From positions 7,580,727-7,644,726 of the forward strand of contig OY987245.1 in assembly GCA_963920765.1 (NCBI GenBank): 64,000 bases of DNA. Reading direction: 5' to 3'. This document shows positions 477-64,000 of this stretch, piece by piece (within the stretch, counting starts at the first letter, position 1; each line of letters opens with the position of its first letter). This DNA comes from Ulota crispa. Taxonomy: Eukaryota > Streptophyta > Bryopsida > Orthotrichales > Orthotrichaceae. The position numbers and the translations under genes are program-made. The notes beneath the pieces were generated by a model. The model was not told the origin of the DNA. It did no database searches and was given only the letters and a program-made list of their open reading frames with translations.

Positions 477-844
477 TTAACCCGCAAACGTCGAGGAGGA
501 CGAAAAATGTCCTCCAGCTTTGAAAAAAGATTTTGTGATTCAGAAAAAAAGTTGTTTTTCATCTGATTTTTTTTTTCAGAAGTGACCATAAACATATGGT
601 CCATCTTGGAAGACAAAAAATTACAACTTGAAATGCATTCATTTTTTTGTAACCCAAATTGTGATAAGATTCAGAAACATGGTGTTGACTCGCAAGTTGC
701 TCTTCTTGCAATTTTCATGGGGTACCATGCATTGTTGACTTTTCCAACTTTTTGAAGCAATACTATTGGTGCACATGTGCAAAACACTGTAGATTGCTAC
801 AGGCAGGGCAAGCCACGGTGATCCATACGTCCTTTAAGGGTTAA
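477..844 (+). mobile_element. TTAA-flanked MITE, copy 1 (piggyBac-like ends)
   Basis: The element begins TTAACCCGCAAACGTC and ends ACGTCCTTTAAGGGTTAA, so TTAA sits at both ends (477-480 and 841-844). A 7-bp stem (GGAGGAC/GTCCTCC, 495-501 with 509-515) lies just inside the left end. A second copy of the same subfamily is at 62473-62827, alike over most of its length. There is no coding capacity. TTAA target sites with CCC termini are typical of piggyBac-type elements. Confidence 0.75.
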
Positions 845-1052
845 TCTCCAAAGGAGAAGAATGGGTAAGAAGGAGACTTAGCACTTGAATTGTGTGTTTC
901 TTTTGCATTTTGCTCTTCTTGCTTTCACCTTGTAGTTGGAGACCTTGGTTTAGTGTGTGAATGCAACTTGCTTTCTTATTGCATCACCATTTTTTAGGTC
1001 AACTCATTTTCCATTCTCCTCCGCCCACGAAAGGAGAATTACACTTTTGTCA

Positions 1053-1510
1053 TAAGGTAGGAGCACCTTAAATGGACACGATTTGTTTACAGACACCTAT
1101 AAAACAACCTGTATCGGATCCAGAAGTTGGGCAAATAGGACACGATCCTCGGGTATGAGATCCAATAGTTGGGCAAATGGGACACAAACCATGGGTATGA
1201 GTAGTCCTAGTGACCATTTTAAGCATTAAAGTGATCTATTCTTGGACTCTTTTGTCCACTCATTTGGTCTTCTCTATGTTTGTTTTCCCAAGGTTTATGA
1301 CCGATGTACAACATGTCTAGGGTTCACAATAGGTGTATCTACAACCTTGTTTTCAAAAATTCATATTTTATTCATAAAACTACAAAATAATATGAGGACA
1401 ATTTGATGCCCATCTGTGCCCCATTTCCTAATAGAAATTGTATTCAAAATCTCAATGCACCTTCTTGAATTGATTTAACAAAAATGTCCATTTAAGGTGC
1501 TCTTACCTTA
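1053..1510. mobile_element. TA-flanked AAGGTAG MITE, copy T1
   Basis: The ends are TAAGGTAGGAGCACCTTAAA and its near-exact reverse complement, with TA at both borders. The AAGGTAG terminus is shared with nine other elements in the window (T2-T10). The interior is AT-rich and non-coding. A TA target fits Tc1/mariner-type MITEs, but the superfamily is inferred from the target only. Confidence 0.7.
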
Positions 1511-3468
1511 GAGAAGTGCTCCAACTGACTCCTATTTCCACTCCACAACCTCTCATTCTTCATAGAAATTTCACTCTCAGAGAAGGTGTAGCTACCCCTA
1601 ATGTTCTTTGTAAATTCTTTTTATGGGGCTTGGCTCCCAAGTTGTTTCTCCATCTTTAAGGGGTTGTCCACATTACGTCTCAATGAAATCAAAGAATGTG
1701 ATTGATTGTTAGTCAAATCAAAGTTAGAATTTGGCAATTCACATTGTGTCTCAAGTTCCATGTCTTGGTTTGTTGCATGTTGCCTCCATGGTAGAACTAT
1801 ATGGAAGTTTTGGCGCTAAAGGTATGTTCACACTTTGATGTTAGGAGGGATATTAGCAATATGAATGCACTCTAAAAGTGTGTCCAAATGCATCTAATTT
1901 TCCTTTACTACTACCACTCTTAACACCAAGTGTGAACATACCCCAAATAGGTGAGATATTGGTCAAAATTTGAATTTATCAGTTTGCTTGTCCCAACTTT
2001 TATTTCATATTTTTTTTATAAAATTTTCATGGCTTTCTTCAAGATTCCTTTTTGCCCTTAATTACCCAAAATTAGAATCTTGTGTTGAGGTGGGACTTGT
2101 ACACTTGGTACATGGGATGCAGCGTGCATAGTTCCTAAGTCGCCCTATTTTTCAGTAATATCCCACTTTGTTGATGCCAAAACTTCCAAAAAATGATACC
2201 ATGTAGACATTTTCAAATAAAATGGGACTCGAGGCAAAATGCGAAACTACAAGTCTTTAGTTTAATATTTTACCAATCAGATTCTGGAATTTAATGGGGC
2301 TTGAGACATAGTGAGAAGCATTTTGGAAGGCCTAACTATAAATTAGTTTTCCGTTTCTTTTCGTAATATTTTCCTTCCTATGGTCTTTATTGGGCTTGAC
2401 TATTATTATTTAAACGCTTACTAGTAATTTCATTGCAACAAAAAATGTGAAAGCGGCAAGGCTGAAATTGAAATTTTAGTAAATTTTGCAATGTTTTTAG
2501 CCACTTGCTCTGATTATGAAGAACATTCGGGATTGTTTGGGGACCATGCCAAGAGGACAATGGCATTTGAATGGTCAACCTGTTTCAAGTTCGTTTGAAA
2601 ACTGGATGATTGGTTTCTATCCAATTTTGTTGTGAACAATTTTGTTCGTGATACACATGCATCATTGAACTAAATTCAAGTTATGATAAATTTTAAACAC
2701 AGTATTATATAGTGTATTTTAGTAATTTTGGCTTTTTGTTCAAACTCTTAAATGTCCAAGGCACATTATTTTGGTGTTGGAATTTTTTTGAAGTTAAATA
2801 AATCTTGTTAGTATTTGAGTTCCTAATTTGTATTTACAAAAAGAAAAAAGTGAAGAGGTTAGGAGGTGGTGTTATGTTATCAACACTAGAATTTTCCTAA
2901 AGCAAAGGTTGTGTCTCAGGCATATTAATCTCCTGTCACAAATCCTAAAAATACACCAAATTCAATAAAGAAAAGAAGTTAGGCAAAAAGAAAGGATGTC
3001 AACTTTTGGTATTTAAAAAAAAAATGCCATGTCACAAAATAGCAAATGCAACTTGCTTCATTTGGTGAATTGAAAGTCGCTGAACTGAATCATTGGAAGT
3101 CCAACGAAGATTTTGTTTTCAAGAGAGGTTGTTTTTCTTGACTCTTGTCCTCGTAGCAATCTTTGGCTTTTCTCTCATATTTAAAGAATATCGTTTAGGT
3201 TGCCCCACACTAATTTCTCAACATTTCACACTATATAAATATTTACTGCTGCTACAATATTTTTCATCAAAAATCATTACAATAAATCATTTTTAGAAAG
3301 CCTATGAACAACAATGAAGCAACAACAAGACAAACTAGTGGCTTCCAAGTCACAAACCATGTGAAATCTAAATATTTAGTGAGTTGCATGTGCCTCCAAG
3401 TGACCAAGTGATGACTCATGAGGTAACTTACTGGGGTAAGGCAACCTAAATGCAATATTCAATGTAGT
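1511..3468. other. No gene seen; one small TIR element
   Basis: AT-rich sequence with no supported exon. A 122-bp element at 1821-1942 has terminal inverted repeats starting GGTATGTTCACACTT and matching over about 20 bp. Nothing else is recognised. Confidence 0.5.
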
Positions 3469-4037
3469 TTAACCCTTGAACGCCTATAGGGCATAGTATA
3501 TATGATGACGTATAATTTTCATTTATTACCAATAAGAAATTTTAATTTGGGATCTCAAGTAGCTCACTAGAACCACCATTAGGAAAAATATGGGACCCCA
3601 ATAAGGCCCTAAGTTTGGGGGGTCCCTAGCTATGGGAACCCGGTTCCCAATAAAATCATGCGCAGACTGATGTGGCATCATTGATGTCATGTCAGCTTTT
3701 TTGATTTTTAATTTAATAAATAAATAAATAATCAAAAAAATCAAAAAGTTTTGTGTTTTTTTCTAAGATTTTTTTGTTTTGATTTTTCTGATTTTTTTAA
3801 TTAATTTTTTTTGGCCATCGGCAAGAGCTGGTTCCCCACATCAAGAACCAAAAAAATGGAGTGCTGGAATTGTTTATAAAGGCCTTCTTGAGGCCCCATA
3901 TTTTTCCTAATGATTGATCTATTCTCCACTTCTTTGTTGGTCTTAAATGTAGTACAGGTGTGAATCCATTCCAAATACAAGGAAAATATGTTGTATTGTA
4001 CTGGCCGCAAAGGGCCTTCCCGTTGTTCAAGGGTTAA
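3469..4037. mobile_element. TTAA-flanked MITE, copy 2
   Basis: It starts TTAACCCTTGAACGCC and ends GTTGTTCAAGGGTTAA. Its interior is related to the elements at 12936-13148 and 53241-53486, sharing a stretch about a 'gggatctcaagtagctca' block. Its right-hand TTAA at 4034-4037 is also the left-hand TTAA of the next element. Non-coding. Confidence 0.7.
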
Positions 4038-4585
4038 CCCCTAAACGCCCAATCGACCATTTTTTGGTCGTTACCCTTTTTTGCAGGCTGCCCAAAAAGA
4101 AAAAAAAAATATATATTTTTTGAAAAAATTAAAAATACCTCATATAGGGAATCAAGTCTACTTTCCAACCCAATTTGAATCATGTCAATCCAAGTTAAAC
4201 TCCACCAAGGAGAATTTTTCAAAGAAAACACTTCAATATTTGCTAGTGTTATAAAATTTACTATTTTGGGAAACTAATTATATTCTCTCCATCAAAAATA
4301 CTGCATTTTTTAACTTTCAAATAGAATGTCTATTTTCAACCAATCATACCAACTTTCAAGTTGTATGAATAAAATTTGTAATTTTGATGAATATTAAATG
4401 GTAAATGCTTCTAAATTCATTAAACAAGAGTTCAAAACTTTTTTTGAATGTTTGACTGTATGAATAATTACTAAACATCATGACTCTTGTTTTCTCTTTT
4501 AAAACAAACTTCTTCAAGCTTACAAAAGTATCATTTTAGAACGCATTTATGTTTTGCCCTTACCCCTTGGGCGTATAGGGGTTAA
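4034..4585. mobile_element. TTAA-flanked MITE, copy 3
   Basis: It starts TTAACCCCTAAACGCCC and ends GGGCGTATAGGGGTTAA. A subterminal hairpin CGACCA/TGGTCG occupies 4054-4070. The element at 5183-5711 is the same subfamily in the opposite orientation, including this hairpin. Non-coding. It shares its TTAA with copy 2, so one element landed exactly at the border of the other. Confidence 0.75.
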
Positions 4586-5182
4586 GGAAGCTCACAAATC
4601 ATTCTCAACATTGAGAACCATTTGTTAGTACATTTGAACCCAAAAATTTCAAATGCATAATTTTGGAATCACCACCAAAAAAATTTGGTCATTCTTTACT
4701 AAATCTAGCACATTCGTGAATTTTGTTATAGATAACTGATTCAATCTTTTTGGCTTCTAAACATTTGACTCTTCGTTACAAAAACCAATTTTTTCAAAAG
4801 ATTCCAAACACGCAAAGATAGAAGCTACCAAAGTAATTGGATGGATGCATATCTTTCTTCATGATTTGGAGGTTTGATGCCAATATGCAATGAGTAAAGG
4901 CTGCACATCCATGCATTTGTTACAAAGAGGAATTCCATGATCTTGTAGAAGAGTTGCTGCCTTCATCCACCTCTTCACTCCAATCAACAAATTCACAAGG
5001 TTGAGTGTTAAGATTGGTTTAAATGTGGTTCCAAACAATGAGAAATTGGTAACCTTACCTGAATCCTTCAAGTAACCTAAAATGTGGTTTCCTTGCATTG
5101 ACCACCGTGGTTTGATGCATTGTTACTCATTGCCAACTTATGACAAACAAACACAACCCCAAACTAAATTGGTCATCTCTTT
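4586..5182. other. No gene or repeat recognised
   Basis: About 600 bp of AT-rich sequence between two TTAA elements. A 79-codon open frame on the minus strand has no recognisable family and no splice context I trust. Confidence 0.4.
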
Positions 5183-5711
5183 TTAACCCCTAAACGCCCG
5201 AGGGGTAAGGGCAAAACATAAATGCATTCAAAAAAATATTCTTGTAACTTCAATGAAGTTTATTTCAAAAGAGAAAATAAGAATCATGATGTTTACCAAT
5301 TATCCATGTGGTCAAATATTCAAAAAAAGTTTTGGACTCTTCTTTAATGAATTTAGAAGCGTTTACCATTTAATATTCACCAAAATTACAAATTTTACTC
5401 ATAGATTTCAAAATTTGGTATGATTGGTTAAAAATAGACATTCTATCCTAAACTTCAAAAATGCTATTTTTTGAAAGGAGGGAACATCATTAGTTTCCCA
5501 AAATAGTAAATTCTACAACACTAGCAAATATTGAAATGTTTGTCTTTGAAAAATTCTTCTTGGAGGAGTTTAACTTGGATTGACATGATTCAAGTTAGGT
5601 TGGAGAGTAGACTTGATTTTCTATTACAATTTTTTTTTTTTTTTTTGTCTTGGGCAGCCCAAAAAAACAAGCAACGACCAGAAAATGGTCAATTGGGTGC
5701 TTCGGGGTTAA
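5183..5711 (-). mobile_element. TTAA-flanked MITE, copy 4 (inverted relative to copy 3)
   Basis: It starts TTAACCCCTAAACGCCC and ends with a diverged GTGCTTCGGGGTTAA. The interior matches 4034-4585 in reverse orientation, including the GACCA/TGGTC hairpin at 5676-5690. Non-coding. Confidence 0.75.
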
Positions 5712-5726
5712 GGTAGTTTAGATATT

Positions 5727-6030
5727 AGGGAAAATTTCATGGATATTCCTAAAGTTTGTCATATTTGTATAAATACCCTTGATTTTTCAGAAATTGCACA
5801 AATACCCTTGGACCCTAATTTTCAAGTGTTTGTTTGCACCTTCATGACAAATGCTAAAGCAAACAATGCAATCAAAAAGAAGTAGCCTACGCACAAGGGA
5901 GAAAAAATTAGCATGCACAACATAACAAATGCCTGAAAATGATGGCCCAAGGATATTTGTGCAATTTCTGTAAAGCCAAGGGCACCTATACAAATATGGC
6001 AAACTTTAGGGATATCCATAAAATTTCCCT
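5727..6030. mobile_element. Foldback MITE F1 (AGGGAAAATTTCAT ends)
   Basis: A long palindromic element starting AGGGAAAATTTCATGG and ending CCATAAAATTTCCCT. The two arms pair over most of the length. Five copies are present in the window (F1-F5). Open frames in these elements are by-products of the palindrome and should not be read as genes. Confidence 0.7.
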
Positions 6031-12099: not shown

Positions 12100-15000
12100 T
12101 CAGGCCCCTAAGAGACCGAAAAACAGGCTTGATTTTACCATTGGGTTGTTTGCTCTAGGCAAATCGTCCAACTCAGATACTCTATCAGACCCTGCTGGAT
12201 AACCTCTTCTCCCGCTTGTGCCAGGACTACCTGGCGTAGCTGGTGTGCGCATTCCCAGCACCTCTGTAGTACAAAGAAACACCAAGGTCATGACCTTGAG
12301 TATGATAATATATAGATTGAGCGTTGAGTGTGGTCTATTAAGATAGGAGCATCCATAAACGTCAAACTAAGGGTTTTGAACATGATGACTATTAATAAAC
12401 AACTAGCAAATTATAGGATCCTATTATGAGGAACAGAAAAAAAAGAGTTTGCACCTTCAAATGTATTATTTGGATATTGTGAGAATAAACTATGAATTTT
12501 TAAAGAGCAAATTGCCATTGTACCCATAACCATTTTTAAGAATTCATGTTCACATGTTGTACATTCTTGTCATTACATCTATTCACTTTCACAAATTTTC
12601 CAAGATTTCAGAAGTGACGGTTATGAGGACATTGATGCTTATGGGTGCTCCTACTTTACAGCTTGTGGTGGGTGCAAGCTACATCAAGTTCTGGAGCAAC
12701 AAGTGATATGTACGCACCACAAGCTGTTGAACACCCCGTGCAATTCTCAATGTAGCATAGCCAACAGCAAAAGCAGCAACAAAATGTGAACCAAGTGACA
12801 CAAGTTGCTGAGGGCGTGCCACATATGCCTCTGAAATTACGGATTGGCTACGACATGATACCATCCCGAGATTGCCTTGACCATTAAAATGAAGTAGTCA
12901 GTTTTGTTTTGTCTTCTACTTGAAGATTTTTGTCTTTAACCCTTAAACGACCAAAAGTCCCTTTGCAACCAATACAATACGGGATATTTTTCTTGTATTT
13001 GGACACCTATAATAGAGACTAACAAAGAAGTTGGAGAATAGATCAATGCGGTTCTAGTGAGCTACTTGAGATCCCAAATTAATATTTCTCATTGGTAGTT
13101 AAGGGCAATTATACGTCAGTGTATGTACTATTCCCTATGGTCGTTTAACCCGTAAACGACGATGGGAATGAAAATCGTCCCTGGCAAATACACTGAGCCA
13201 ATGTATTTATGGCCATAGGCCCTGGCGCTTAAGGGTTAAGACTCAATGAAAATGTAACAAATCTCGACGTTTGGATAATTTGAGTTAACGAGTCACTGCA
13301 GTCTAACTTCATAATGGGAACTAGTTAATGGCGCATGTTTAAAGCAAATATTACCAGGTCCTCCTTGTTCGTTCTGGAAATAGAATCCCTGCACCTCTCG
13401 CTGTGCCTGATCGACCATTTCGGTGATTGTAGCATCGTCCGCACAACGGAGTTCGTTTAGTGCTCCAGGAGTACCCTGGACACAATTATCAAGATTAGAA
13501 CTTTAGACTTCTCAAAACGGATGTTGCTGACATTGAGCAGGAGTCACATTATTCACATAACACCATATTCGATAATTTGGGAAAAACGGTACATTTTGGG
13601 ACTTTCAATTTTTGAGATGAATGTTTTAGGTGATCAAAAAATGCTGAGCTCGGTCTTAGGTGATCACGTGTCCTCACCTAAAAGAAGGAATTTGCGAGGA
13701 AATTTTTTTTAGTGTCTCAGACTAAATCTGATACCTTTGAATCTGGTTTAAGGTAACTTTTTGGGTTTAAGGTGGAGTACAAAGTGGGATACCTGTTTTT
13801 CCCAAATTAACAAATATGGTATTATATATAAAGTTTTACTTAACATAAAAAGCAACATTTGATCACTTTCGAGTTCTTCTACACGGTTGATGAAGAAGTT
13901 TCAAAGGAAATTTAATGGGTGAGGGGTACCTTTTTCATTCTATCAAGGAATGGCGTGGTATGAGGCCTAAAGGTGCACTCTGCCATCTCCTGTTGCCACT
14001 TTGCCTTCCTCCAATCCTCGACCTTTTGATGCCTCGCTAAAAATTCGGCGATGATAATTTGCCACCATTGCTCATGCGTGCTGCATGCCATGCGTATAGA
14101 TATGTCTATTTTCATGTTCAAAAGTCTTTTCTTTTTCAAAAAATTTATTCAAAATTTACAACAAATGTGTAGAGTCACTACTTCACTACATGAGTAGTGA
14201 AAGGAATTCCGCTATGTCTAGACATGGCATGGTTACAAAACCACTTTGTACGAGCAGAAATTAAAAGTAAAAATATCAGATATTTAAGAAAAAACTTACC
14301 ACCCATTTTCACTGATCTTGAAAACGTACCTAAATTTCCGTCTTCCTTTCGCTAAAGCTCGGGACAGTCGATCCATCTTGAATTGGAATGTGCAGTTTTC
14401 ATCAAAATTGTGCCTCTTGTGCTTAAGAGAAAAATGTACTTGCCGGCCAAGATGGTATTTCATCTGCAGGATTTTCAACATATCAGCATCTTAAATCAAC
14501 AACAGGAATTCATTGCTCGCTGCTCCTAATCCTTCTCAAAGTTTCGAAAATGTTGATTAAGTCGTAGGTCTAAATCGCTACACCTGCTAAATCTAAGTCG
14601 ACAAGCTCCGAGAGAAGCTTAACCGGTACCAACCAGGGCATAACGAGAATGTAAAGGGAACATTTCATGAATTCCCCCGAAGTTTGCAATATTTTCATAG
14701 ATACCTCTACTTTTTCAGAAATATCACAAACACCCTTGGACCAAAATTTTGAGGCATTTTTTTTGTTGTGCATGTCACTTTCATCTCCCTTTGTGCTAAC
14801 ATTACTTCTTTCTTGGTATGCATGCGCACAAAGGAAGAAGGGAAGTGACATGCACAACATGCAAAACAAACGCCTAAATTTTTTTTGGTCCAAGGGTATT
14901 TATAATATTTCTGAAAAAGCAGGGATATCTATGAAAATATTGCAAACTTTAGGGGTATCCATGAAATATTCCCTAATTTAAAAGGATAATCAAGAATTGA

Positions 15001-18000
15001 ACCTCAATCTTCAGCATCAGATCTTCAAAATTATCTAAATCTAATTTTCGAGTGCCTTCTGCCATCTTCATCAATCGTCTGAGGTCTTCTATCACATCCA
15101 GATTCAAACGATCAAAATCTCGATCAAGATTAGCGGTAGTAAGGTCCACATAACCGTCCTGTAAGATCACCAGCAAAAACATGTTTAAGTAATTTTCAAG
15201 CACGTACATTGCAGAGCTTGATAGAACAGTTATTGAGGTTGAATACAACATCAATAACAAGATTGTTTTGCTGAACATGTAAAACACATTGTTACTAATA
15301 CCTAACATGCGTTACTTAACCATCAAATACCCAGTCTAAACAGAGACGCTACAATGTAAGAAAGGCAAAACCTTATCAGTATCCAGGTAATCAAAAACGT
15401 GCTTGAAACCACGGTCTTTAAGACGCTCAAGTAACCTCTGGGAATTCGGCCCAACGTACCGGCCTCGTGCTTGTTCTTTCTTCATTTTGTTATCTCTTGT
15501 GGCTAGGCTCCTAATTTTGCTGTCGAAAGTGTATTTCATTCTGTGCAAGTATTCTCCAATAGGCAAATGCACTGGGTTTCTCTGCGCATAAAAACAAAAA
15601 AAAACACGATATTCATTAAATTGGGAAAAAACGGACATTTCGGGAATTCTGGCCCTTTTTTGTCAAGTGTGCACTTGATTATTTTTCAATGAAATGAGAT
15701 GTATATCTTCCAAAAATACGCTCTTTATTACCCAAGAAGCCAAGAACAAAATCTATTTATTCCACAAAACAACAATATTTCTGAAATTTTGGGCACAAAG
15801 TTCATTAACTACGTTTAGGTTGACCTCCTTAAACATTTAAGTTAACCTCCTTAAACATTTAAGTTGACTTGAGAGGTTTTAGGTGAAATATAGTTTGGGA
15901 ATTTTTTTTTTCCAATTTAATGAATATCGTGTTAAAAACTTTCACTTCAGGTATAAAGATATGCTGCACCGACCAGAACTTCTGAAATAAATAAGAGATT
16001 TTCCTGACATTCACGACGTGATTAGCTTTCTTCAAGCAGAATTCAAAGCTAGAAAAAAAATCTTTTTTTGGAAGAGAAAATGGGAGATTCCCAATATAGC
16101 ATACGTTGTATGGTTTGCGGCCAATGAGGGGTTTGAATAATTCTCGACCAGTGCGCGGATCAAACGGTCTATGAGACAATTGCTGCTGGTTGTGTTTCTT
16201 CTCCATTACCCTCGAAGCATTCTCCACAAGTCTACGAAAGACAGAGGGTTCTGGCTTCCAATCATCAACAATCAATGACGTCCCATGTGGCAGATCTCGG
16301 TTGATAGAGGGCTGGAATGTGACTCTGCACGCCCCATTCGACCTTGTCAGTGAACTTGAAAATTTACCTCCAATCCATATAAACACAATTTTTTCTAAAC
16401 TACTAAACAGCAAAAACATGCCACCTTTCAAGGCACCAAGAAGCAACACTGAATGCATATTTTCAGGTCACCACTTTCCTAATTAACCCATTAACGTCTG
16501 TGGTTGATTCTGGGGTGGGCAATCCTTTGCATGGTTATTTGGGGCAAATTTTAAAACTATTGGATACAAATGTCTACCACAAATATGACTGTACAAATGG
16601 AAGTACATTGCAGGGTTTAATGTTATGTATCATAAATTATGCTCATTCTTTAGTTGCTATGGCCATCTTTTTACATTTATTGGTGTATTTTCAACCGATA
16701 CTCTTTTAGTTTTTTCAACCCGTAACCACATGCCATCTCAGATTGACCTGGTTATTGTCCTAAACTCTGCACTTTCCAATTCCCCAGACCCGTGCCCTTT
16801 GCCACATCATCAAATTCCTTGACATGCTCTCTCTACAAAGAGTCAAAATCGACCTGGAAATGGTCGACCAGACGTTAATGGGTTAAGGCACGATGAATCT
16901 ATCAAACAATGCAGCTATATTTAACAAGAGTAGCAAGATAAGCGCTTCAATGATTTGAAACACAAAAAAACATCAAAAGTCGTGTCTAGTAAAGATCAAA
17001 GTACGAACAAGAAATGGCTAACCCCTCAGGATACCACTGCATGCATTCTACTCGACGGCGCCTGCGACTTTCAGCATCCATAAATAGCTGCTCAAAGCGG
17101 TTATTGTAGTAGTCGGTATCTTTATCTTGGCTGTCATGCTTGCGGTACTGGTTAATCCGCGGCCTGAATGTGCACTCCATAAGCTTGGATTCCCATACCT
17201 GAGACATTCACCTCACAATCATGGGATCATCCATGTAAGTCTCGGTGACAAATTCTACACCTGGACATTTACAAGTTTGTAATTATATGCTAGAATATCT
17301 ACCTCCTGTCTAAGGTCGTGTAACTGATCCTGCTTTGGTCTGTCGTCGCTCTGAAGCCTACTCCAAATCTGACCTTGCACCCTTCTCATATCTCTTGCTC
17401 TTTGGCTTCACAGTTCATGAAAAAAACGGTAAGGTAGCAGCACCCATAACCGTCAAATTAAGGGTTTTGAACATGATGATTATTAATAAACATCTGGCAA
17501 ATTATTGGATCCTATTAGCAAGGGAGAAATGATGAGTTTGCACTTTCAAATGTATTATTTGAACACTATGAGAATAAGTTGTGAATTTTTAAAGAGCTGA
17601 TTGCAATTGCACCTAATACCAACACTAAGGTTTCATGTTCACATGTTGAACATCCTTGTAAACACAACTATTCACTTCCACGGATTTTCCAAGATTTTAG
17701 AGGTGATGGTTATGGGTACAGGGATGGTTATGGGTGTTGCTACCTTAGATGAGAGATAAAGATGCACTTCGAAACATACACTAACGACGAACTAATACTC
17801 ATATGTCCAAGCCACAGAAGAAGAAAAAAGTTGTCACTCTGAGCAAAAACAGGAAGACTTTTAGTCCGAGATCTATGTTTCGGAAGAACAATTCAAAGGA
17901 CTTGAAAAAGAGCTGAAGGCAACATTATAATTGAGGTGCACAAACACTTAAATCTATTATAGGTGGCACGAAATCTGCAAACCTGATCTTGGGCTTCAAA

Positions 18001-23119: not shown

Positions 23120-23125
23120 AATTGA

Positions 23126-23999: not shown

Positions 24000-25750
<1,751 letters not shown>

Positions 25751-28490: not shown

Positions 28491-29394
28491 CATCTTTTAA
28501 AGCTTATAAAAGTATTTTAAAAGATCGTTTTTTTTTAATTCATTTGGTTAGTAATTGAAGGAAAAATACTAAAAATACCCTTTAAGTCCTTCAAAATATC
28601 AAGTTTACTCTAAAAATATGTGAAACATCAAAAATATTCTTTATTTTTTGTAGGAATATCAATTATACTCCTATTATTTTAGAAAATTAATAAAAAAACT
28701 CTTCTATTTTGAAATGTTAAATATATCCTTATGTTATTTGAAATGTTAAATATATCCTTATGTTATTTGAAATGTAAAAATCACCTTTGGTTTCTTGTAA
28801 GAATTTGCATTAAACTATATACTTGGTTATCATATAACACAAAGATATTTTTGGTACTTTTAATCCTTGAGGGACATATATGATTCTTCAAAGAATTGAG
28901 GAGCATCTTTTATATTTGTTTGTAAAGAAATTTTGGTATTTAAAACAACAAAATGTTGTACTTTTTATATAAAATTTTATTGAATTAGAGAAGTTGTGTC
29001 CAAAAGTGTCCAGATCAACAGAAAACTATTGATTTTTTTGTTATTATGGTCATGTTTTTACTTGACTTTAAAGGCTGCTAATTTTAAATCTTAGCAAATT
29101 GTGAAAAGTAAAGAAAATAAAACCAGTCAATGTACACTCAAACTTCTAAAAGATTCTTTTTTTTTTGAAAACTTCTTTTATTTTTTAAAACTTCAAAACT
29201 TTTTAATGAGGTCCAAAAAGGTTTTAGAAAGATTTCAAAAACAAACCTAAACTATTGTAATAGCTTTTTTATTAAAAATATTTTAAAGTATTTTGATGAA
29301 TTACAAATAGATTCCTAAAGGACTCTAATTCAGTCTAAGAGATTCTATTTTTGTAAATATTTTGAAGTACTTTAACAAATTTCATAAAGATTTT

Positions 29395-29815
29395 AAAAAG
29401 ATTCTCAAAGATTCCAAAAAGGTTCTTGAAAATTCTCAGAGATTCTCAATGATTTTTTGAATTTCCAAAAAGATTCTCAAAAGATTTTCAAAGATTCCCA
29501 AAGATTCTCAAAGCTTCTCAAAGATTCTAGGAAGATTCCAAGATTATTCATAAAGATTCTCAAAAATTCTCAAAAAAATTCAAAATTCCTAGAACATTTC
29601 CAAAGATTCTTAAATATTCCAAACTATTCTCAAAGATTCTCAAAAATTCTCAAATATTCTTAAAAGATTCTCAAAGGTTCCAAGAAGGTTCTCAAAGATT
29701 TCAAGAAGATTCCAAAAAAACTTGAAAAGACTCCCAAAGATTTTCAAAGATTCTTGAAGATTCCAAAAAGATTCTCAAAAAATTCCCAAAAGATCCTCAA
29801 AAGATTCCAAAATTT
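29395..29815 (+). repeat. Degenerate AT-rich minisatellite (gattctcaaa units)
   Basis: Roughly 10-15-bp units of the form 'aaagattctcaaa' and 'agattccaaaa' repeat about thirty times with changes. The 68-codon open frame 29457-29663 is simply a translation of this repeat. Confidence 0.8.
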
Positions 29816-32337: not shown

Positions 32338-34359
32338 TCAACCAGTTTGCATACTAGCCATATCCCAAAATTTGATCTCAAGCTCCAAAATGCGCACACA
32401 AACCTGGAATCAAAAGCCAAATATTGAAAAAGCATCCTTGATAACTGTTTCTCCAAAACAATCACAGGAATCGTAACACATGTTAGATGAAATCAAAGGC
32501 AAGGATGATAGAAAGACATAAGTTAAAAGGTTTACAGTACTGTTTTTTTCTGTTTTTTACCTCTTTGGCTTGCTTCTGCTCAACCTCGGAAGCGGTCTCC
32601 AGAGCTTTGTCAGCCAGCTTCTGCAAGCTCAGTGCATACTCATGGAACTCCGGACTCCCCCATCGCCTGACTGTACTAAGAAGCTCATCTGGCGTTTTGG
32701 AGCCTTCCTCCAAGCATGACATAAAACTGGCGTTGTATACCAATTCTATTAACCAGAAAGCCGCTATTGCAACTGCGTATGGCGTCTCCTCCTTCTCCAG
32801 TTCCTTCAGAAATCTAACAAGAAGCAAAATCAGGGTTAAAAGACCAGAACTAATTCTCCCTTCACTATCTCCAGTTGGTAAAGACGAGATAAAGCGAGAG
32901 AAAGAGACAGACAGCGGATTGCAAAGTACTCCCTCTGTCCCTCTAAAAAGCTCTAAATCAAACACATTTCTTGTACCACTAAAAAGCTCCCTTTTGCTGA
33001 TTTGCCATGTTCAATGATCTCATGGGGGCAAGTTAAGCGATTAGAGAGCATTCCTCTCCTGGCAAGCTTGGCCTTGCCCATATGAGGTACCATTGTTGCT
33101 ACTAAGCTTTTAAATCATCAATAACTAGGAGCTGACAGCAAGCACAAACATGGTACTTTTTGCATGGAATTTGGGTGCCTCAATGGCGACATCAAAACTG
33201 GAGATTTTGCATACATTTGAAAGATGGTATATTGATTCTAGAATGCATGTGTCACTAGCACAAAGACTAAAATAATGAGGAGCTGGCAACATTCACAAAC
33301 TATGCACAAACATGGTACTTTTTGCATGGAATTTAGATGCCTAAACGGCGACATCAAAACTGGAGATTTTGCATACAATTGGTAGATGGTATATTGATTG
33401 TAGAATGCATGTGTCACTATCACAAAAACTAAAAATACAGTTAGATAGCTTTTTGAACGTTTTAAGAAGGACAGATGGAGTATCTTACTTGCAGTAATTT
33501 TTGTTTGGCTCAAGTAACGTGACCTTCTTCAGAAACACTTGCCAGAAGTTCGCCTCTTTCCGAAACCACGCAATCTCGCTCTCTAGAGCTGTAACTCCGC
33601 CCAAGATGACATCCACGTCGTGCTCGGGTGCATCTCGCGGCACCTTGAGTAGCACACTCGCAACGAAGCGGACAAATTCTCTTACGAAGTGGTAATCTTG
33701 TTCCTGAAAAAAGAAAAAAAGAAAAAAACCTAAATATGAATCAAATCGGAACAAATTTAGCCATCATTGCGGTCAGAATTCCACCGCATCTGATTTCAAT
33801 TCGAGAGAAAAACGGAATTTCAGTCGCATGAGAAATTTTCGAAGAAAAAGATTAGTTCAAGGCTCGCCATTCAATGCTCAAAATTGCCGACCAGAAAGCA
33901 AACTTTAATGCCGTATCAAACTAGCCATCGCTGCATTCAGAATCCTCGTCGCCTGATTAGAAATTCGTTTCAAGAGACGATAAATTTCTGTCGTATGAGA
34001 AATTTTCGAAGGAAAGATTAGTTCGAGGCTCGCCATTCAATGCTCAAAATTGATGACCAGAAAGAAAACCTAAGTGCCGCATCAAATGGTGAGCTTAGCG
34101 TTCAGAATCCTCGTCATCTGATCAGGGATTAGGGATTCGTTTTCAAGAGAAGAGGATTTTCAATCGCACAAGAGATTCGAGCAGAAGTGAAAAGATTGTT
34201 TCGGACAGAGCTCACCATCCAGTGCTTGAAATTGATGATATCGATAGAGCCATCTCGAATGCTGGAAATGAAGAGGTGATTCGTGGCCGCTGTCCAAAGG
34301 TCGTGGTTCTTGTGCAGCCAATCTGTTGTGAAGGATGGTTTCTCCGATGTGCCCGACAT
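32338..34359 (-). CDS. TENA_E: TENA_E-type aminopyrimidine aminohydrolase (thiamin salvage), four coding exons
   Basis: Exons in transcript order: 34216-34359, 33489-33703, 32561-32813, 32338-32403, all GT-AG with a continuous frame of 225 aa. TenA-family enzymes hydrolyse amino-pyrimidine thiamin breakdown products so the pyrimidine can be reused; the plant E-type is a cytosolic salvage enzyme. Plant TENA_E features are visible in order: W-x(8)-YTAATRH-like LWTAATNHLFISSIRDGSID, then EQDYHFVREFVRFVASVL, GGVTALESEIAWF, the AAFWLIELVYNASFMSCLEEG block, RWGSPEFHEYA and the C-terminal LELEIKFWDMA, which carries the family's conserved Glu. The last exon of 21 codons is too short to show as an open frame. 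A TTG 15 bp upstream is in frame but ATG at 34359 is the better start. Length agrees with plant homologues. Confidence 0.94.
32927..33482. mobile_element. Stowaway-like MITE S3 in TENA_E intron 2
   Basis: TACTCCCTCTGTCC at the left and GGACAGATGGAGTA at the right with TA borders. The interior matches S1 of MED31, including a tandemly repeated half. Its right TA (33481-33482) is 6 bp from the exon 2 end, so it inserted right after the donor. Confidence 0.75.
33750..34240 (-). repeat. Tandem repeat in TENA_E intron 1 carrying donor-site copies
   Basis: A unit of about 166-182 bp occurs three times. Each contains a 'ggctcgccattcaatgctc' type block (33861, 34027) equivalent to the real exon 1 end plus donor at 34209-34240. 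The two intronic copies read GC where the real donor has GT. The intron therefore grew by duplicating its own 5' splice site with about 20 bp of exon. Confidence 0.7.
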
Positions 34360-50899: not shown

Positions 50900-51659
50900 T
50901 TAACCCCTGAGCGTCCCACAGACAATATACTATCTCTAGGGATTAGAAATGTTTATTTGAGGAATTAGATTTATTTTTTTGATCTTGTTATAAACTACAA
51001 TTATGAAGGCATTCAAGTTGTGCATGCTAATGGAGTAATGGTGAGGAAAGTCGAATGTTGTATAAGTGTTGCAAGAGATTTAATTGGGTGAAACACCATA
51101 CAAGGCGTGGTGGCAAGTAGCTTTTTACAGGCTGCAACCGGTCATTATCCCTTGCAAGCTTCCTTTTGTGTGCTTTGTGGTAGCGGGAAAGTTGTTGGCA
51201 AGGGTTCAAGCATGTTCTAAACCCTTATTATGGCAACCGTCACCGACTGTGCCAGTCATTGTTTTACATGCAATAGCAATTTGAAGCCCTAAAACTTAAC
51301 ATAAAAAGAAGTGCAATCTTCAATAATTTACAAGTGTGTGCATTCACATCTAATCTTGGTACTCACAAAATTTGAGATGAATCTAGGGCTTATAGAATTT
51401 TGTAAAAATCATCAAATAGCAATTACCTACCAAAAATGAGATTTTGTCATCACATATTGTTTGATCAAATGTTATAATCTCCCATCTTCCACATTCAATT
51501 GTTCCCAAACTTTGCAAGCCCTTTCCAAGTAGGTGTTCCATTGTTTTCAAATGGTCACTTTTTGTGGATCATCCAATTGATTAAGATATGATGTATCAAA
51601 GTTGTAGGTCTCCGGAAACCCTCGTTTTGGTGAAAAAACTCTGGGCGCCCAAGGGTTAA
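50900..51659. mobile_element. TTAA-flanked element, 760 bp
   Basis: It starts TTAACCCCTGAGCGTCCC and ends CTGGGCGCCCAAGGGTTAA. The interior shows no transposase. It is the second-longest of the TTAA group. Confidence 0.68.
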
Positions 51660-51756: not shown

Positions 51757-52005
51757 TTAACCCTTGAGCGCCCCACGAGCCAGAATGTGGCCTCTCCATA
51801 TTTGACGGTTTGTTGTCTTTGACCGTTATAATCTTTTAATCCATGCAACAAAAACTTACCAATTTTTTCATACATGTGCGGGCTCTAAGCCTTGTGCAAG
51901 ATCAACGGCTAACTCTTTCATATGTTAATTTTGAACTTGTGGTGTCAAATTACTTGCAATAAGGTCTAACATTGCACAAATTTGGGCTGGGCACTCAAGG
52001 GTTAA
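51757..52005. mobile_element. TTAA-flanked MITE, 249 bp
   Basis: It starts TTAACCCTTGAGCGCCCC and ends GGGCACTCAAGGGTTAA. It matches 40134-40373 along its length. Its right TTAA directly abuts the next element. Confidence 0.75.
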
Positions 52006-52551
52006 GGGCCGCTTTACAATAGGAGTCCTTGAGTCAAGGCCATGAAAACTTGGAACCATTTCAGCCAAAATTTCAGCCCTAATGGTCCAAGAGTGGCCCC
52101 AAGTACCCATTTTAATATGAATATAGTGGTGGCTACTCTCTTGTGTTTGAAGGCTTTGAAGCCAAAAAGTTGAGGCCACTAGAGTAAACTTTGAAGATTT
52201 CAAAAGAAAAGGGATAAATAAAGAGATGAAGGAAAGTTGTTGATAATTTTACTCCATCTTATGGTGTCAAATATCTCAAAATTTTTATTTATTCAAATAA
52301 CTATATTTTGATTAAAATCTAACAATGACCTTGTGGCCAAGAATTGGCTTCACATTTTTGAAAGACCTAACTTTTGAGGTTGGAGTTGTGTCAAATTTTG
52401 TCTCTTAAATATTAGAATAGGTTTTAAAAAATTAGCCTTGACTTCTAGTGTTAAGACCTTGAGGCTGTTTTTAGAATATTAGCCAATCAAGTACAAGCAT
52501 TCCAATGTCAATGGCTAGAAACCAACCTTGACTTGTATTCTAAAGCAATCC
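52006..52551. mobile_element. PIF/Harbinger-like (Tourist-type) MITE D1
   Basis: It starts GGGCCGCTTTACAATAGGAG, has a decayed right end, and shows TAA on both sides. It matches D2 at 58003-58554 in the opposite orientation. Confidence 0.6.
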
Positions 52552-53240
52552 TAAGACTGTCAACAATAAAGAGCTAATTGGGATAAGTTCTTTAACCCCA
52601 AAGCTTCATTGGGGACATAAACTGTCCTTGACCAATTTTTGAGGTTAAATTAAACTTGACCAAATTACTATTTTTAGTAGATTATATTTTTTTAAAGTTC
52701 TTTTTGGAGTTTAGTTTTAGCTTCAAAAATCTAATTTTGCAAATGTTTAATTATGATTTTCCTATTCAAGATTTTGTCCTTAGGGGTTCATTGCAATCTT
52801 GACTTTATATAGTGTTGAGGGCTCTTGGGAATGAGCCTCAAATACACTAGATCTTTGAGAAAAAATCACATTAGAAATTCTTTTAAAAATTTGTAGAGTA
52901 GATTTTGAGAAGTCATAAATTGATTGGGGTTATGCATGTTAGGCTCTTTTACCTCATATTTTTTTGGTGACCAACTTTTTTGATTTGACATGTGAAAAGA
53001 AGATTAAAAGACTTCAAGTCACTTTCATAGCTTTAACAGGCTCATGATCAAACATTATAATCTTTCAATCCATAAGAGATATTTTTGTATTTTCTTTTCT
53101 AATGTGATTTCTAACATGTCTAGTTGGGTTTTATACGGTTACAATTCAAAATGAACTGATACAACTTATCAAAATATTGGCTTTTAGTTCAAATTAAAGA
53201 AAATTCCTAGAAACCCTGGAAATGCAATGTCACTTTGGGG

Positions 53241-53486
53241 TTAACCTCCAAAGGTCCTATGGGAATAGTAGATATATACTAGATAAGTTGCCACGTAATT
53301 GACATTTACAACCAACAAGAAACTATAATTGGGGATCTCAAATAGCTCATTAGAATTACATTTATCTACATTCCAACTTCTTCGTTGATCTCAAATGTGA
53401 TAAAGGTGTAGATCCATTTCCAATACAAGAAAAAGATCTTATACTGCATTGCTACAAAGGCATTTTCAAACGTTTCGGGACTATAA
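53241..53486. mobile_element. TTAA-type MITE, decayed right end
   Basis: It starts TTAACCTCCAAAGGTCC. The interior matches 3469-4037 ('ggggatctcaaatagctca', 'gatctcaaatgtgat'). The right terminus is worn and its border approximate. Confidence 0.55.
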
Positions 53487-58002: not shown

Positions 58003-58554
58003 AGGGCCACTTTACACTAAAAATCAAGGTTGGTTTCTAGCACCTAACACTCCAAATGTTGGGTTATTGTTGGTTATTTCTTGAAAATGGCCTTAAAGCC
58101 TTCACATTAGGAGTCTAGCTATTTTCTTAAAACATGCTTTTAAAATTAAAACAATTAGATTTGACATGGCTTTGACTTTAGAAATTGGATCTCCCAAAAA
58201 TAGGAAGCCAATTCTTGACCTTAGCGTCATTGCTATATTTTATTAGAATAGGGTTACATAAATAGAAAACATTTTTTTGAGATAATCACCACAGTTGGAT
58301 GGAGTAAAAATAATATGAATGGCTCCCCTTGGTCTCTTATTTACTCCTTTTCTCTTGAAATTCTCAAATTTTGTTCTAGTGACCTCAACTTTTTGGCCTC
58401 AAAGCCTTTACACATAAGAGAGTTAGCCCCGTCATACTCATACTATAATGGGCGCTTGAAACCATTCTTGAGGTGATTTGGCCTGAATTTTTGGTTTAAA
58501 TGTCCCCAAGTTTTCATGTTTTCATGGCCTTCACTCCTAGTGTAAAGTGGCCCT
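58003..58554. mobile_element. PIF/Harbinger-like (Tourist-type) MITE D2
   Basis: AGGGCCACTTTACACTA at the left and its exact 17-bp inverse at the right, with TTA on both sides when GGGCC is taken as the first bases. A 3-bp TWA target fits PIF/Harbinger. It matches D1 at 52006-52551, inverted. Confidence 0.75.
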
Positions 58555-59336: not shown

Positions 59337-59986
59337 TCAAAGCTTGAGTGTATGCAAAATTGTCAAGTTTATAAACCAAGGGGGCATGCATACTGCAAAA
59401 CTAAGCTTACTCTGCAGATGCAGGAGTGTAGACTTCTTATTGAAGGCGATAGAGTGGAAGTGTTTGCGGATGAAAGGGGCTGGATACCCTCGAGCCCGCA
59501 GTTGATCATAAAAGAGTCTCTTAATGTTGTGAAAACCATAAATGGAGCTCTCACGCAAAAGATACCGCCCAAATTCTCCCATAATGGACGCTTTCTTCTG
59601 ATACAGCAAGTGCCAGGAAGCCCACAGCAAGTACTTGTACTTGTTTTGGGGCTTTTGATGGCACCTAGTTGAAAAGGATGTGTTGTAGTAAATTCAAGTC
59701 CCTTGAAGATGTGTATGTCGAGCATGTCTGCGCTGGTGTTGCTGATGCAATGCTTGATTTTAATTTTGGGGTACCATACCCCATAAGTTCCTAGATAATG
59801 TTGGAGCTCATGGAGTGGGCCGGTCCACATGCCAAAAGCATTGTCAATATAATGCTTAAAATGCATCATATGGTTGTAAATGGGACCTACGACATCATCT
59901 AGCTCATTTTCCAAATCGCAAAGAAAAATGCAAGCATGCACCCCTGCAAAATTGCTACCCATTGCTGTACCTAACTTTGGTAGCAA
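59337..59986 (-). mobile_element. Penelope-like reverse transcriptase fragment (broken)
   Basis: The translated minus strand shows GTAMGSNFA, then HFKHYID, then WYPKIKIKH and a LDIHIFK block, followed in another frame by a stretch ending with RARGYPAPFI. This order fits the reverse transcriptase of Penelope-like elements. It is a fossil: only the middle and rear of the domain are seen, and it carries at least one break. No endonuclease domain or terminal repeat was recognised, so the outer borders are unknown. Confidence 0.7.
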
Positions 59987-60569
59987 CGAGCAGCGTAAAC
60001 TTTCTTGGCAAAAATTTGCCTAAATCTTACCTATAAACTAGCTTGGCAATCATAACATGGGAAATAATCTCTGAAAAAATGAATGAATTTGCCCAACCCC
60101 TCCCCAAGTTTGTAGTAGATTTGCCAGATTTTGGATAAAAATTATTAAAATTAGTAAATTTTATAAATAAATAAGCAGACGTCAATGATTCTATCCAATT
60201 CTATCCAAATTTTCCTTACCTGCTCGCATGGTGGGGTGCGTGTCATTCTACTAGCAAAAATAAAAACAAAAACGCTGGCAACGAGCCAACGAGAGGGCCA
60301 AGCTGTCAAGTTTTGAAACAATTGGAGGAGGCATGCAAAGTGCAAAGTTTGAGGAGAGAAAGGCAAGCGCAGCCCCCTCGCTGGGTTCCATTCTTCACTA
60401 CTTGCAATGTCCTCGTCCAACCAATAGGCATAGCCGCCTTTCAAACCCAAATATGGGTCGTTCAAGAAGGGCTTGGTTTTGTGCACAGACGTGTTTATAC
60501 GGCCACAGTGGAAAACCAGAGCTTTTTTTTACGAATACGGGTAAAATTAGTTCTATGTCCCTACTCCTA

Positions 60570-60749
60570 TATAGTAGTGCCTCTTTAAGATGAACCTTTA
60601 TAAGAAAGAACACTTAGCTAAGTTGAAGGAGATGACTGTCCCTAACTGTTGGGGAGTTACAAAAAATGTATTTGGTTACAATGAATACTTTCCTTACACA
60701 AAATGAATATGCTATCCAGATACCTTCATCTTATCAAGACACCACTGTA
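60570..60749. mobile_element. Pogo-like MITE, 180 bp
   Basis: The left end TATAGTAGTGCCTCTTTAAG and the right end CTTATCAAGACACCACTGTA are imperfect inverses with TA borders. The CAGTGGTGYCT type terminus fits pogo-like MITEs. Confidence 0.55.
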
Positions 60750-62472
60750 TAGGAGTTGGTCAATTTCATCCTTTTTTGTGTTTCTAGATTAAATTAGTGT
60801 CTTTGAATGAATTAAAAAATCTAAAATTCAATCTTTGGATTTGACAATAAATATCTACATTCTTACATTACATTGTTTGGTATGTGAAAATCAAAGTTTT
60901 TCATGTTCGCCCCACAAACTCATAAAGCAGCAAATGGAGCCTAGCCCCATTCATCCCAGTGGCCTAATGCTGAATGCTGTTTTTCTTGTTTTTGGAAAGT
61001 AGATTTGAAGATTTTAGCTTCAATTATTGACCAAAAACCATTATCAAGGAAAGAGAATTCCTTGGTGAATGAATTCTAACATGTATAACAAAGACATTCC
61101 AAGTGAAATTAGCCCAAAAACACATTTGGATTTTATTAGATGACAAAATTTCAACAAAAGGCCCTCACTACCCAAGGAAGTGCCCAAGAGAGATCTTCAT
61201 TTTATTCTCAACATGTTGCTTTTTTTTTTCCAGTGTGATAGCTTCTCATAGGCTTTTTTAGTGAAATTCTTCATCACACTATTTGGTGTGCAAGAGGTAT
61301 CCTTGCTGTTTAACTTTTACCAAAAAAAATTGGAACTAATATGAAGGACATTAAAATTGAAAATTGAAGCTTACCTTGGACTACTTCTCTCTAAAAATAA
61401 CTAAAAACTAAAAACAATAACTATTCTATATTCAGCAAGGTTTCAAAATTTACTAAACACTCAAATTTGGTGCCTTGAGCAATTAGGGGTTAATCATTAA
61501 AAGAATTATTTATTTATTTTTTATAATAGGACTTTCCTATAATAACTTTCTTGTTTTAAACCCTTGACTAAGTTTGATTGAATTAGATCCTACCATCAAA
61601 GTAATATTTGGTAACTTGGAAGTAAAACCTTCTGATAAAATAATTCTTTCCATTTCATTTGGTGTGGCATGTTGTTTCTTATTACAAAGCTTTACTTTAA
61701 AGTTACCTAATTTAATCCCAATAACCTCAATATGTACGCTTCTATTGAAACAACATTTTTTTCAAGTTATTTAATTATATAGGCTTCAGGCTATGCATAT
61801 CATTTCTTAGCTCTAGAATCATGATATTTTGAATTTAGAGGTGCGCACATTGTTGTGGCTTAAGCTTGTGATCTCAACAATTTAGTTGTATGTAATTGCT
61901 AAACAAGTAATGTGTGAGGTAATTACATGTGAGGGAGTATCGAGGTATGTCACTCACTACAAGGGATCAGTGTCAGTTTTGACATTTTTTTTTGGTCAAT
62001 TAGGGCATCCTGGTTGGAACAAATTTTTATCAATTTGAACATTTTAGTCAATTTGGATGTGTGGATGCTGACATTTTTTCTTGTTGTATATTGATGTGTT
62101 GTTGTTCTTTGTGACCTTGCTCACTTTGCTATAATGGTAAACATGTCATTGATGTAGAAATTACATACTTCCTTGGGCTTCTTGGTGTGTGATGCAAACT
62201 AAAAACACTGGAGTGTGAACAATGGTTGTTTGGTCATTAAAAAAGACCAATAATTGGCACGTGTGGGTATTGGCATGTTTACAATCCATGATATATTACC
62301 AATGTGCAGCACAATTTTACATTTTTTTATTTGAGTGATTTGAGAATCTCAAATCACTCATTGATCTAATAAAAAACAAAACACAACCTAGGTGTTATTG
62401 TTCTCTGTTGTTAAAAAAAGTTTAATGATAATGTGCACATAATTGAAGCTCATTGTTGAAATTTTAGCATTA
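60750..62472. other. No gene recognised; one perfect hairpin
   Basis: AT-rich DNA. A hairpin with a 14-bp stem and a single central base is at 62332-62360 (TGAGTGATTTGAGA and its inverse). It is not followed by a clear T-tract and I give it no function. Confidence 0.4.
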
Positions 62473-62827
62473 TTAACCCCTAAACATGGGCACGGACAAA
62501 AAAACGTCAATTGCCTTCAAAAAAATTGTGTATCTCAGAAAAAAACCGATTTTGATCTGATTTTTTTTCAGAAGTGATCATAAAAGCGTAGTGCATCATG
62601 GAAGGCAAAAATTTACCTCTTGAGATACATTCATTTTATTTTGTAACCCAAATTGTGATACATGGTGTTAGCTCCTGAGCTGCCCTTCTTCCAATTTTCA
62701 TGAGGGCACCATGCACTATTGACTTTTCCAACTTTTTGAACCAATACTATTGGTGCCCATGTGCAAAACAATGTAAAATGCTACAGGTAGGCAAGTCACG
62801 GTGATCCATCCGTCCTTTAAGGGTTAA
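62473..62827. mobile_element. TTAA-flanked MITE, second copy of the 477-844 subfamily
   Basis: It starts TTAACCCCTAAACATGG and ends CGTCCTTTAAGGGTTAA. It matches 477-844 along most of its length, with the left hairpin region diverged. Confidence 0.75.
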
Positions 62828-63340
62828 TTATAATTTGACCCTAACTCCTTTGCCAATCACAAATTGACATAGTATTTAAATTTTTTTGCATGAAAACAAT
62901 GTGCTTGGTCCTTCTAGCTTAAATCTAAATTCCAATGATCATATTGTTTTGTTGTAGTGGTGGATTCTATAGTACTTGTGCTCATGATAAAGACTCACAA
63001 CAAAGAGGTGGTACTCATTTTTGTTGTTCAACCAAAATTGAGTAGACTTGAGCAATTCAAACCTTAAATCAACCAAGAAAAGTATGAATCTATCTGTATT
63101 GTAGATTATAGAATTTTGGCACCAAAAACATTACATGTTTGAAAAACTCTATAAATTGTTGTTTTAACAAATATGAACATGTTGACTCATTTAATATGTT
63201 AATGCAATGTTGACCACCCACCCTTTCATTGTGGTTAAATTATGATTAGCAATAACCACACTTGTCTAGAATGGTTAGCAACATACCTTGAATAACATTG
63301 TGAACTCAAAATGCCAATATATATTTATCAATAAAATATC

Positions 63341-64000
63341 TTAACCCCTAAAGCCATGTTGTCCCCTCGAGGGACAAATGGGATTTTGGGCAGGTACCTA
63401 CGCCCTCAATTTTTGTCCTGATTTTTTGAAATTTTTTTGGAATATAGAAAAACACATTAGCTTTTGGGAAATCTAATTTTTATTCCAATCTATGCCCAAA
63501 AGCAAAATTTATGCCTAGATAAGCAAAAATGTATGGGGATCAAGCTGCAATTTTTTCTTACAAAAACTTGAATTTACATTATTTATTTTTCTTCTCATAG
63601 GTTATAGTTTTTTTTACATCTAAAGCTTTGATTCATTCCATTTGGACTAGTTATGAGAAAGTTATGGACAATCTTGTTTTTTGGGCAATTCAAACATCTT
63701 CTTGAAAAAATAACTTATATACTTTATTTTTGAATGCAATTTTAATGTTTTTTCAAAAAAAACTATTGGAAAGGGTGAAGTTTGCTTGCTAGAACAATCT
63801 CACCATTGGGATGATTGCATTTCAATTCCATTGCAAGGTTATTAGCAATTTAGGTTTTTGTTCAATCTCATACCTTCTTCTACCAAATGTTTTTTAAAGA
63901 ATGAAAATTAAGTATCTTTTGTTTTGATTTTTTTTGAAGATTCTCAACTCAATTTCCGACCATAAAAAAAGAGACCTCCAAATTTTGTGGTGCAAAAATA
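63341..64000 (+). mobile_element. TTAA-type element running off the window
   Basis: It starts TTAACCCCTAAAGCC, followed by a 7-bp stem TTGTCCC/GGGACAA at 63359-63377. The start mirrors the end at 54819. The right end is outside the window, so its length is unknown. No coding sequence seen. Confidence 0.55.

Follow-up and report, generated by a model that had tools for sequence, protein, structure and literature searches.

Short elements that begin with TTAACCC and end with GGGTTAA recur in a 64,000-nucleotide stretch of the Ulota crispa genome (hereafter the window; C4:7580727-7644726, within a 274.8-Mb genome). Many of them carry, just inside one end, a short palindrome whose arms differ between subfamilies while remaining complementary. 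What would keep the pairing constant while the bases change? The original prediction was that the fold itself matters and that a piggyBac-like transposase encoded elsewhere in the genome recognizes a terminal sequence together with a hairpin. The elements belong to the piggyBac superfamily, as non-autonomous and decayed members, similar to miniature inverted-repeat transposable elements (MITEs), within a land-plant genome, and a palindrome at base pairs (bp) 17-33, centered on bp 25, is a feature of many of them. By analogy with the insect system, we consider it probable, at roughly 0.8, that this palindrome is a diversified docking site to which a transposase dimer would bind as duplex DNA, rather than a folded hairpin.

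The tips are far more numerous than in controls. The window holds 14 TTAACCC and 17 GGGTTAA motifs, 31 in all, whereas 30 first-order Markov controls averaged 10.8 and never exceeded 18. A longer version of the tip (TTAACCC, 3 bases, then A-N-C-G) occurs 12 times against 0.03 in the Markov controls. Genome-wide, the tip motif is found 44,145 times and its reversed control 122 times; the CCC terminal motif of the piggyBac superfamily, which is also the tip of piggyBac from Trichoplusia ni, is thus present in abundance. Twelve spans in the window were chosen as elements by eye, TTAA being checked at both ends of each, and further element ends stand unpaired. The original observation of such elements is largely right; approximately fifteen were first noted, and about a dozen TTAA-bounded elements are counted here.

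To place the palindromes, positions were counted from the first C after TTAA, and the bases lying 4 to 8 positions from a given center were scored as arms (5 pairs). Base-by-base checking confirmed the predicted stems GGAGGAC/GTCCTCC at 495-515 and CGACC/GGTCG at 4054-4070, both centered on bp 25. It also confirmed TTGTCCC/GGGACAA at 63359-63377, centered on bp 24, which has relatives on contig C1 centered on either bp 24 (L112, L115, L116, L121) or bp 25 (L061, L113, L117). The fourth proposed stem, GACGAT/ATCGTC within 13145-13239, proved to be an artifact of register: centered on bp 20.5, it draws some of its bases from the shared tip. The site there that is comparable to the other stems is a decayed palindrome at bp 17-33 (GGAAT/GTCCC, 3 of 5 pairs). 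A scan of possible centers across 97 TTAACCC ends, taken from the window and from loci L019-L038, flagged a single peak, at bp 25.0, where 8 ends pair at all five positions against 0.3 expected.

A larger set of 141 ends matching the tip TTAACCCNTNANNGNC was drawn from the window and L019-L041 (59 ends) and from 80 short stretches of contig C1 (82 ends); the latter are 80 of 100 listed places, the 20 omitted places all having tips that end in AAAGGAC. At least four of the five pairs are present at bp 25 in 28 of the 141 ends, compared with 3.3 on average, and never more than 10, in 200 shuffles. A second candidate center, bp 27.5, paired in 12 of the 141 ends where shuffles gave up to 11; it was rejected, being mainly a T-run facing an A-run and absent from the six best family-level centers. 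Genome-wide, a pattern allowing free gaps around GACC/GGTC (21 x 11 = 231 gap combinations) matched 1192 times versus 59 for its reversed control, and of the 100 pairings counted in 100 of these strings, 75 are centered on bp 25.0, including 68 at bp 18-21/29-32. The corresponding GGAC/GTCC pattern matched 5585 times versus 60, part of the matches using the GGAC of the tip; those of the type TTAACCCCTAAAGGACCATTGTCC were excluded from the geometry, as the tip supplies their first GGAC. A pattern of fixed geometry matched 5624 times versus 267 for the reversed control. A chance origin of tips and palindromes is rejected on the strength of the Markov, center-scan and reversed-control counts.

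Is the pairing then a matter of constraint or of shared ancestry? If a single ancestral palindrome had been inherited by all families, covariation would reflect relatedness, and the tips are indeed related between families. Because the copies are related too, per-copy counts are not independent events and a test at the level of clusters is safer. When each of the 59 families (clusters of interior sequence) is represented by a single end, pairing at bp 25 persists in 11; the shuffles gave 1.7, and none of the 1000 reached 11. The arms also differ outright among ends (GGAC, GACC, CACC, AACC, GGTC, ATCC and GGCT), and neutral decay would break pairs, not swap both sides. Base change with retained pairing is also seen at bp 20/30, the one arm pair that the fixed-geometry pattern leaves unconstrained on both sides. 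Among the matches listed for that pattern, 86 are given with their letters and 84 of these are different; bp 20/30 is complementary in 68 of the 84, against 34.8 expected and at most 50 in 10,000 shuffles, and these 68 comprise 31 C-G, 36 A-T and 1 T-A pairs. The proposal that pairing is kept while the bases change is upheld by all three comparisons with shuffled controls, and inheritance of one palindrome without constraint seems to us quite improbable.

A transposase that could act on such ends is encoded elsewhere in the genome, as had been foreseen. PF13843 (DDE_Tnp_1_7) gave 120 matches over the cut-off at approximately 116 places, the best at 1.3e-73, and none in 14 control genomes (whose identity is not stated). 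The copies are mostly broken, since 110 of the 120 matches are interrupted by an internal stop. One copy, translated alone, matched T. ni piggyBac (6x67) at 3.6e-20 and piggyBat (9c0f) at 1.4e-16. The D/D/D region aligned with the T. ni chain through TVDE and CDN (in L039) and GVDxxDQ (in L022), motifs which we take to hold the catalytic residues. Behind the catalytic domain lies a C-terminal domain rich in Cys and His, found at E<0.001 in 21 of 23 loci with a profile of 8 seeds that are themselves counted within the 21; L030 and L035 did not reach this threshold. Seven Cys/His positions are invariant across the 8 seeds, with a histidine ahead of them in most loci. In Pfam, the C-terminal open reading frame (ORF) of L022, the one ORF with an intact pattern that was tested, had no zinc-domain match. 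Some transposase copies occur as pairs of equal or nearly equal score in opposite orientation on the same contig (C7:18203169/18223004, C10:676128/785346 and C2:36765124/36779670), possibly as inverted segmental duplications.

The PF13843 matches are bounded by TTAACCC ends of the kind that the window elements have. In several of the 23 loci, for example L019, L022, L023, L024 and L037, similar ends flank the gene on both sides; in others of the 23 read, no matching end pair was found. The palindrome is mostly upstream of the gene. Among ends pointing at the gene within 4.5 kb in the 23 loci, 13 of 31 upstream ends bear a palindrome, compared with 2 of 34 downstream ends (Fisher p 0.0008). Within 3.3 kb the counts are 9 of 16 and 2 of 24 (p 0.0025), and in the strictest setting (TTAACCC tip, 3.3 kb) 7 of 13 and 2 of 19 (p 0.015). 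The ends of several window elements resemble these ends directly. Element F (16483-16886) matches the upstream end of L037 at its palindromic end, with 82% identity over 50 bp that include the palindrome (E 2.7e-10), and a downstream end of L039 at the opposite end, with 81% identity over 27 bp (E 0.003). The left end of element C (4034-4585) is 86% identical over 35 bp to an upstream end of L032, and the end at 61493 is 80% identical over 59 bp to an upstream end of L032 and 84% identical over 37 bp to L022. From the matches of F, C and 61493 it follows that some window MITEs share both tip and palindrome with transposase-upstream ends. The end of element G (24000-25750) is 70% identical over 80 bp to an upstream end of L027, and the ends of element B (3469-4037) match ends near transposase loci L038 and L028.

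An important point is whether TTAA is in fact the target. Of 34 joined-flank queries run against 351 kb of sequence, two gave empty paralogous sites, those for L019:8802-9454 and L027:514-1452; here the TTAA on either side of the element is matched by just one TTAA in the paralogous sequence (L007 and L019:8401-8517). The remaining queries lacked a usable paralog. A third apparent empty site was discarded as an artifact of the element's own end. In a genome-wide query with 11 window elements, in which 40 of 6222 candidates were scored, the joined flanks of element A (477-844) were contiguous at nine other places, 75-78% identical and without the 364-bp insert, these sites being known by alignment span. 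TTAA is thus the target for the two elements that can be compared base by base. The window also contains, at 58323-58458 and 52099-52237, diverged unoccupied copies of the repeat hit by the L027 element, which read TCAA at the target position.

TTAA is not a target unique to piggyBac, as Kolobok and Sola3 use it also, and since TTAA by itself is unspecific the MITEs might have come from another such superfamily. PF13843 transposases between like ends argue against this (no search was aimed at Kolobok or Sola3), as do the matches of the F, C and 61493 ends to transposase-upstream ends across both tip and palindrome. From these comparisons another superfamily appears largely refuted, and very improbable, as the source of the palindrome families. 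Element B, whose family lacks the palindrome, could belong to another lineage. At 3469-4037 and from 12936 onwards in the window, and at 713-1157 in L003, there is a TTAA family whose inverted ends are longer (..CATAGGGCATA.TATATA..); its window copies are without a palindrome at bp 25 and may use another transposase lineage.

How might the palindrome act? In T. ni piggyBac, bp 17-33 of the left end are a palindrome that is bound as a duplex by a dimer of C-terminal zinc domains (PMC7351741). On that model, the tip (approximately bp 1-16) would be read by the transposase core, and the palindrome would be bound as double-stranded DNA by a dimer's pair of C-terminal zinc domains, one to each half-site. 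The spacing would be fixed by the need for the half-sites to keep in register with the tip and to be separated by approximately one turn of the helix. The arms could drift only symmetrically, as identical domains would read both, and each such drift may found a new subfamily. Since a homodimer reading two half-sites requires both arms to change together, compensatory change would be the signature of a homodimer site rather than of a folded hairpin. Zinc-domain similarity and arm similarity are correlated (Mantel r 0.51, p 0.0013) across ten loci, picked because both the left end and the zinc domain could be read there, the zinc domain of L038 being partial.

The alternative is that the palindrome is extruded or single-stranded and is recognized, by the transposase or a host factor, through the folded shape of one strand. 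Such a hairpin would equally keep its arms complementary while their sequence changes, and 2 observations favor it over the docking site. Complementarity extends somewhat into the spacer, with bp 22/28 pairing in 58 of the 84 sequences (37.6 expected) and bp 23/27 in 39 (26.3 expected). Furthermore, ten clusters have just one mismatch in the arms, and among these G-T is commoner than A-C (6 to 2, or 11 to 3 over copies). However, five of the six G-T clusters have their mismatch at bp 17/33, where the G of the shared tip may intrude, leaving this smaller set equivocal, a minor point in favor of the hairpin. Pairing at bp 24/26, next to the center, does not exceed chance (31 of 84, 36.8 expected), which counts against a hairpin. 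A folded single strand should tolerate G-T over A-C, so the absence of any wobble bias in the larger set (84 sequences, three pairs; G-T 12, A-C 15) speaks against a hairpin, as does a center mostly fixed at bp 25, the known site of duplex binding by the T. ni dimer. The prediction that the fold itself is recognized is therefore not sustained, and we judge a hairpin improbable.

Several further findings weigh against a dimer docking site. Most ends lack a good palindrome (113 of the 141 fall below 4 of 5 pairs, in a set that includes right ends as well), and one large family, that of the end at 63341, is centered on either bp 24 or 25. Some families, such as those of B and H, show no palindrome at bp 25 by the standard arms: element B, with TTAACCCTTGAAC ends and no assigned strand, has 1 and 2 of 5 pairs at its two ends, and element H (50900-51659; 756 bp plus TTAA, strand likewise not assigned) has 0 and 3 with no clear palindrome. 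Compensatory change is in excess overall, but the idea of a stem in every subfamily is not confirmed. The counts of palindrome-bearing ends near transposase genes include some ends of neighboring MITEs, as well as an upstream end at 1093 bp in L039 whose tip is poor and which may have arisen by chance. Similarity of the tips also tracks that of the zinc domains (r 0.35, p 0.022); the Mantel correlation is confounded by common descent, although it fits co-diversification of domains and arms. Finally, the plant Cys/His pattern resembles the piggyBat/PiggyMac type and not that of T. ni, whose C-terminal pattern looks unlike the plant domain's. A 2021 paper states that the organization of the ends was not known to correlate in any straightforward way with the fold of the cysteine-rich domain (CRD) (PMC8086355).

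The elements of the window differ in length and in the state of their palindromes (the numbers between arms below are spacer lengths). Element A, a MITE of 364 bp plus TTAA on the + strand, carries its GGAGGAC-7-GTCCTCC palindrome at the left end, while its right end has 2 of 5 arm pairs. A relative of A, element L (62473-62827, +), has a decayed palindrome (1 of 5 pairs) and a right-end sequence resembling that of A. Element C (548 bp plus TTAA, +) has CGACC-7-GGTCG, and its inverted relative, element D (5183-5711, -), has TGACC-7-GGTCG at approximately 5675-5691, centered on bp 25 with 4 of 5 pairs. In element F (400 bp plus TTAA, -) the palindrome is TCGACC-7-GGTCGA at approximately 16849-16867, again centered on bp 25. 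Element G (1747 bp plus TTAA, -) has ACGGC-9-GCTGT at approximately 25713-25731 with the same center and one G-T pair; this palindrome was read by eye and has 3 of 5 pairs under the standard arms. The single ORF of element G that was tested gave no Pfam match. Element I (51757-52005, +; 245 bp plus TTAA) carries an imperfect GAGCCA/TGGCCTC near bp 17-33 (3 of 5 pairs), and element J (52592-53244, +; 649 bp plus TTAA) carries GGGACA/TGTCCT at approximately 52612-52628, centered on bp 25 with 4 of 5 pairs.

Three features are less simple. The composite at 12936-13239, with no strand assigned, is an element of a B-like family that has the shorter TTAACCC...GGGTTAA stretch of 13145-13239 in its end; this 95-bp stretch seems to lie within the end of the 12936 element, with a junction unlike that of a simple nested insertion. 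At 61457-61493 (-) a left end stands alone, its other end not assigned, with a decayed GCACC-7-AGTGT (3 of 5 pairs). The left end at 63341-64000 (+), with TTGTCCC-5-GGGACAA, belongs to an element that continues beyond the window.

Outside these elements, an array with a period of approximately 31 bases spans 29349-29790 in 11 overlapping copies. One of the seven window ORFs tested gave a Pfam match, and this was weak: the ORF at 32483-32965 (-) matched TENA_THI-4 at E 1.9e-4 and 21.7 bits (curated cut-off 22), and is possibly an exon of a host gene. The 205-residue ORF at 59369-59986 (-) had no Pfam match; to our eye it resembles part of a reverse transcriptase. In the genome, 25 NAC-domain (PF02365) matches, grouped into about 13 genes, suggest a land plant outside the seed plants.

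What would a diversified docking site mean for the genome as a whole? The sequence relationships raise the serious but still tentative possibility that one plant genome hosts at least ten mutually orthogonal piggyBac systems, each with its own zinc domain and left-end palindrome, nearly all at bp 25, so that the palindrome would act as a lineage barcode for approximately 20,000 elements. If this is true, the palindrome decides which transposase mobilizes which elements, and the systems together constitute a natural recognition code for zinc domains. Stems that change in sequence and continue to pair lead to a testable statement, that of a homodimer docking site in a land plant at the position used by insect piggyBac. 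The many natural pairs of domain and palindrome in one genomic background would offer a chance to seek the correlation between end organization and CRD fold for which no straightforward form was known in 2021 (PMC8086355). They could also be of use in learning how such transposases recognize DNA and in building orthogonal transposon tools.

PiggyBac elements were originally described as rarely reported from land plants, but plant piggyBac-like elements are already listed in print: plants appear among piggyBac hosts (PMC8086355), PiggyBac is among listed plant superfamilies (PMC10794571), and the repeat table of the Ceratopteris genome gives 1230 PiggyBac copies (PMC6890710). A text search of one moss genome paper yielded "piggybacking" alone. 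A literature search with thin coverage of subscription journals found neither diversified palindromes nor ends in the tens of thousands described for plants, and no piggyBac MITE radiation in a bryophyte or lycophyte. The presence of piggyBac in a plant is not new; the scale and the radiation of palindromes are the unusual part. A parallel in kind is found in Acropora, whose CMITEs are short and non-autonomous, duplicate TTAA and bear in their terminal inverted repeats a motif, CC[C/T]T, that is linked to piggyBac-like transposons (PMC2872659); the plant elements are alike in being short, non-autonomous and TTAA-duplicating, with piggyBac-linked tips. In the text of that coral study, "palindrom" and "hairpin" are absent and "subterminal" occurs 4 times.

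With T. ni piggyBac the plant elements share the TTAA target, the PF13843 transposase and a left-end palindrome at bp 17-33. The left end LE35 of T. ni carries a palindromic 19-bp internal repeat (PMC7351741), and the same repeat is found on both ends at different distances (PMC7351741, PMC11707139), whereas plant downstream ends are rarely palindromic (2 of 34). The half-site sequences differ between the 2 systems. In piggyBat of Myotis lucifugus, palindromes are described at the left end only and are unrelated in sequence to those of T. ni (PMC11707139, PMC13405395). The motifs reported there include G1 at bp 11-16, G3 at bp 99-104 and P3 at bp 107-120 (PMC11707139), which by arithmetic would put P1 at about bp 19-32. 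The piggyBat left end has three such G-plus-P motifs, whereas the plant ends show one peak among centers from 14 to 59.5. In their zinc domains the plant transposases follow the Cys/His order given for piggyBat and PiggyMac (PMC8086355), with one His and then seven Cys/His in most loci. The palindromes of U. crispa thus combine the position known from T. ni with, largely, the one-endedness of piggyBat.

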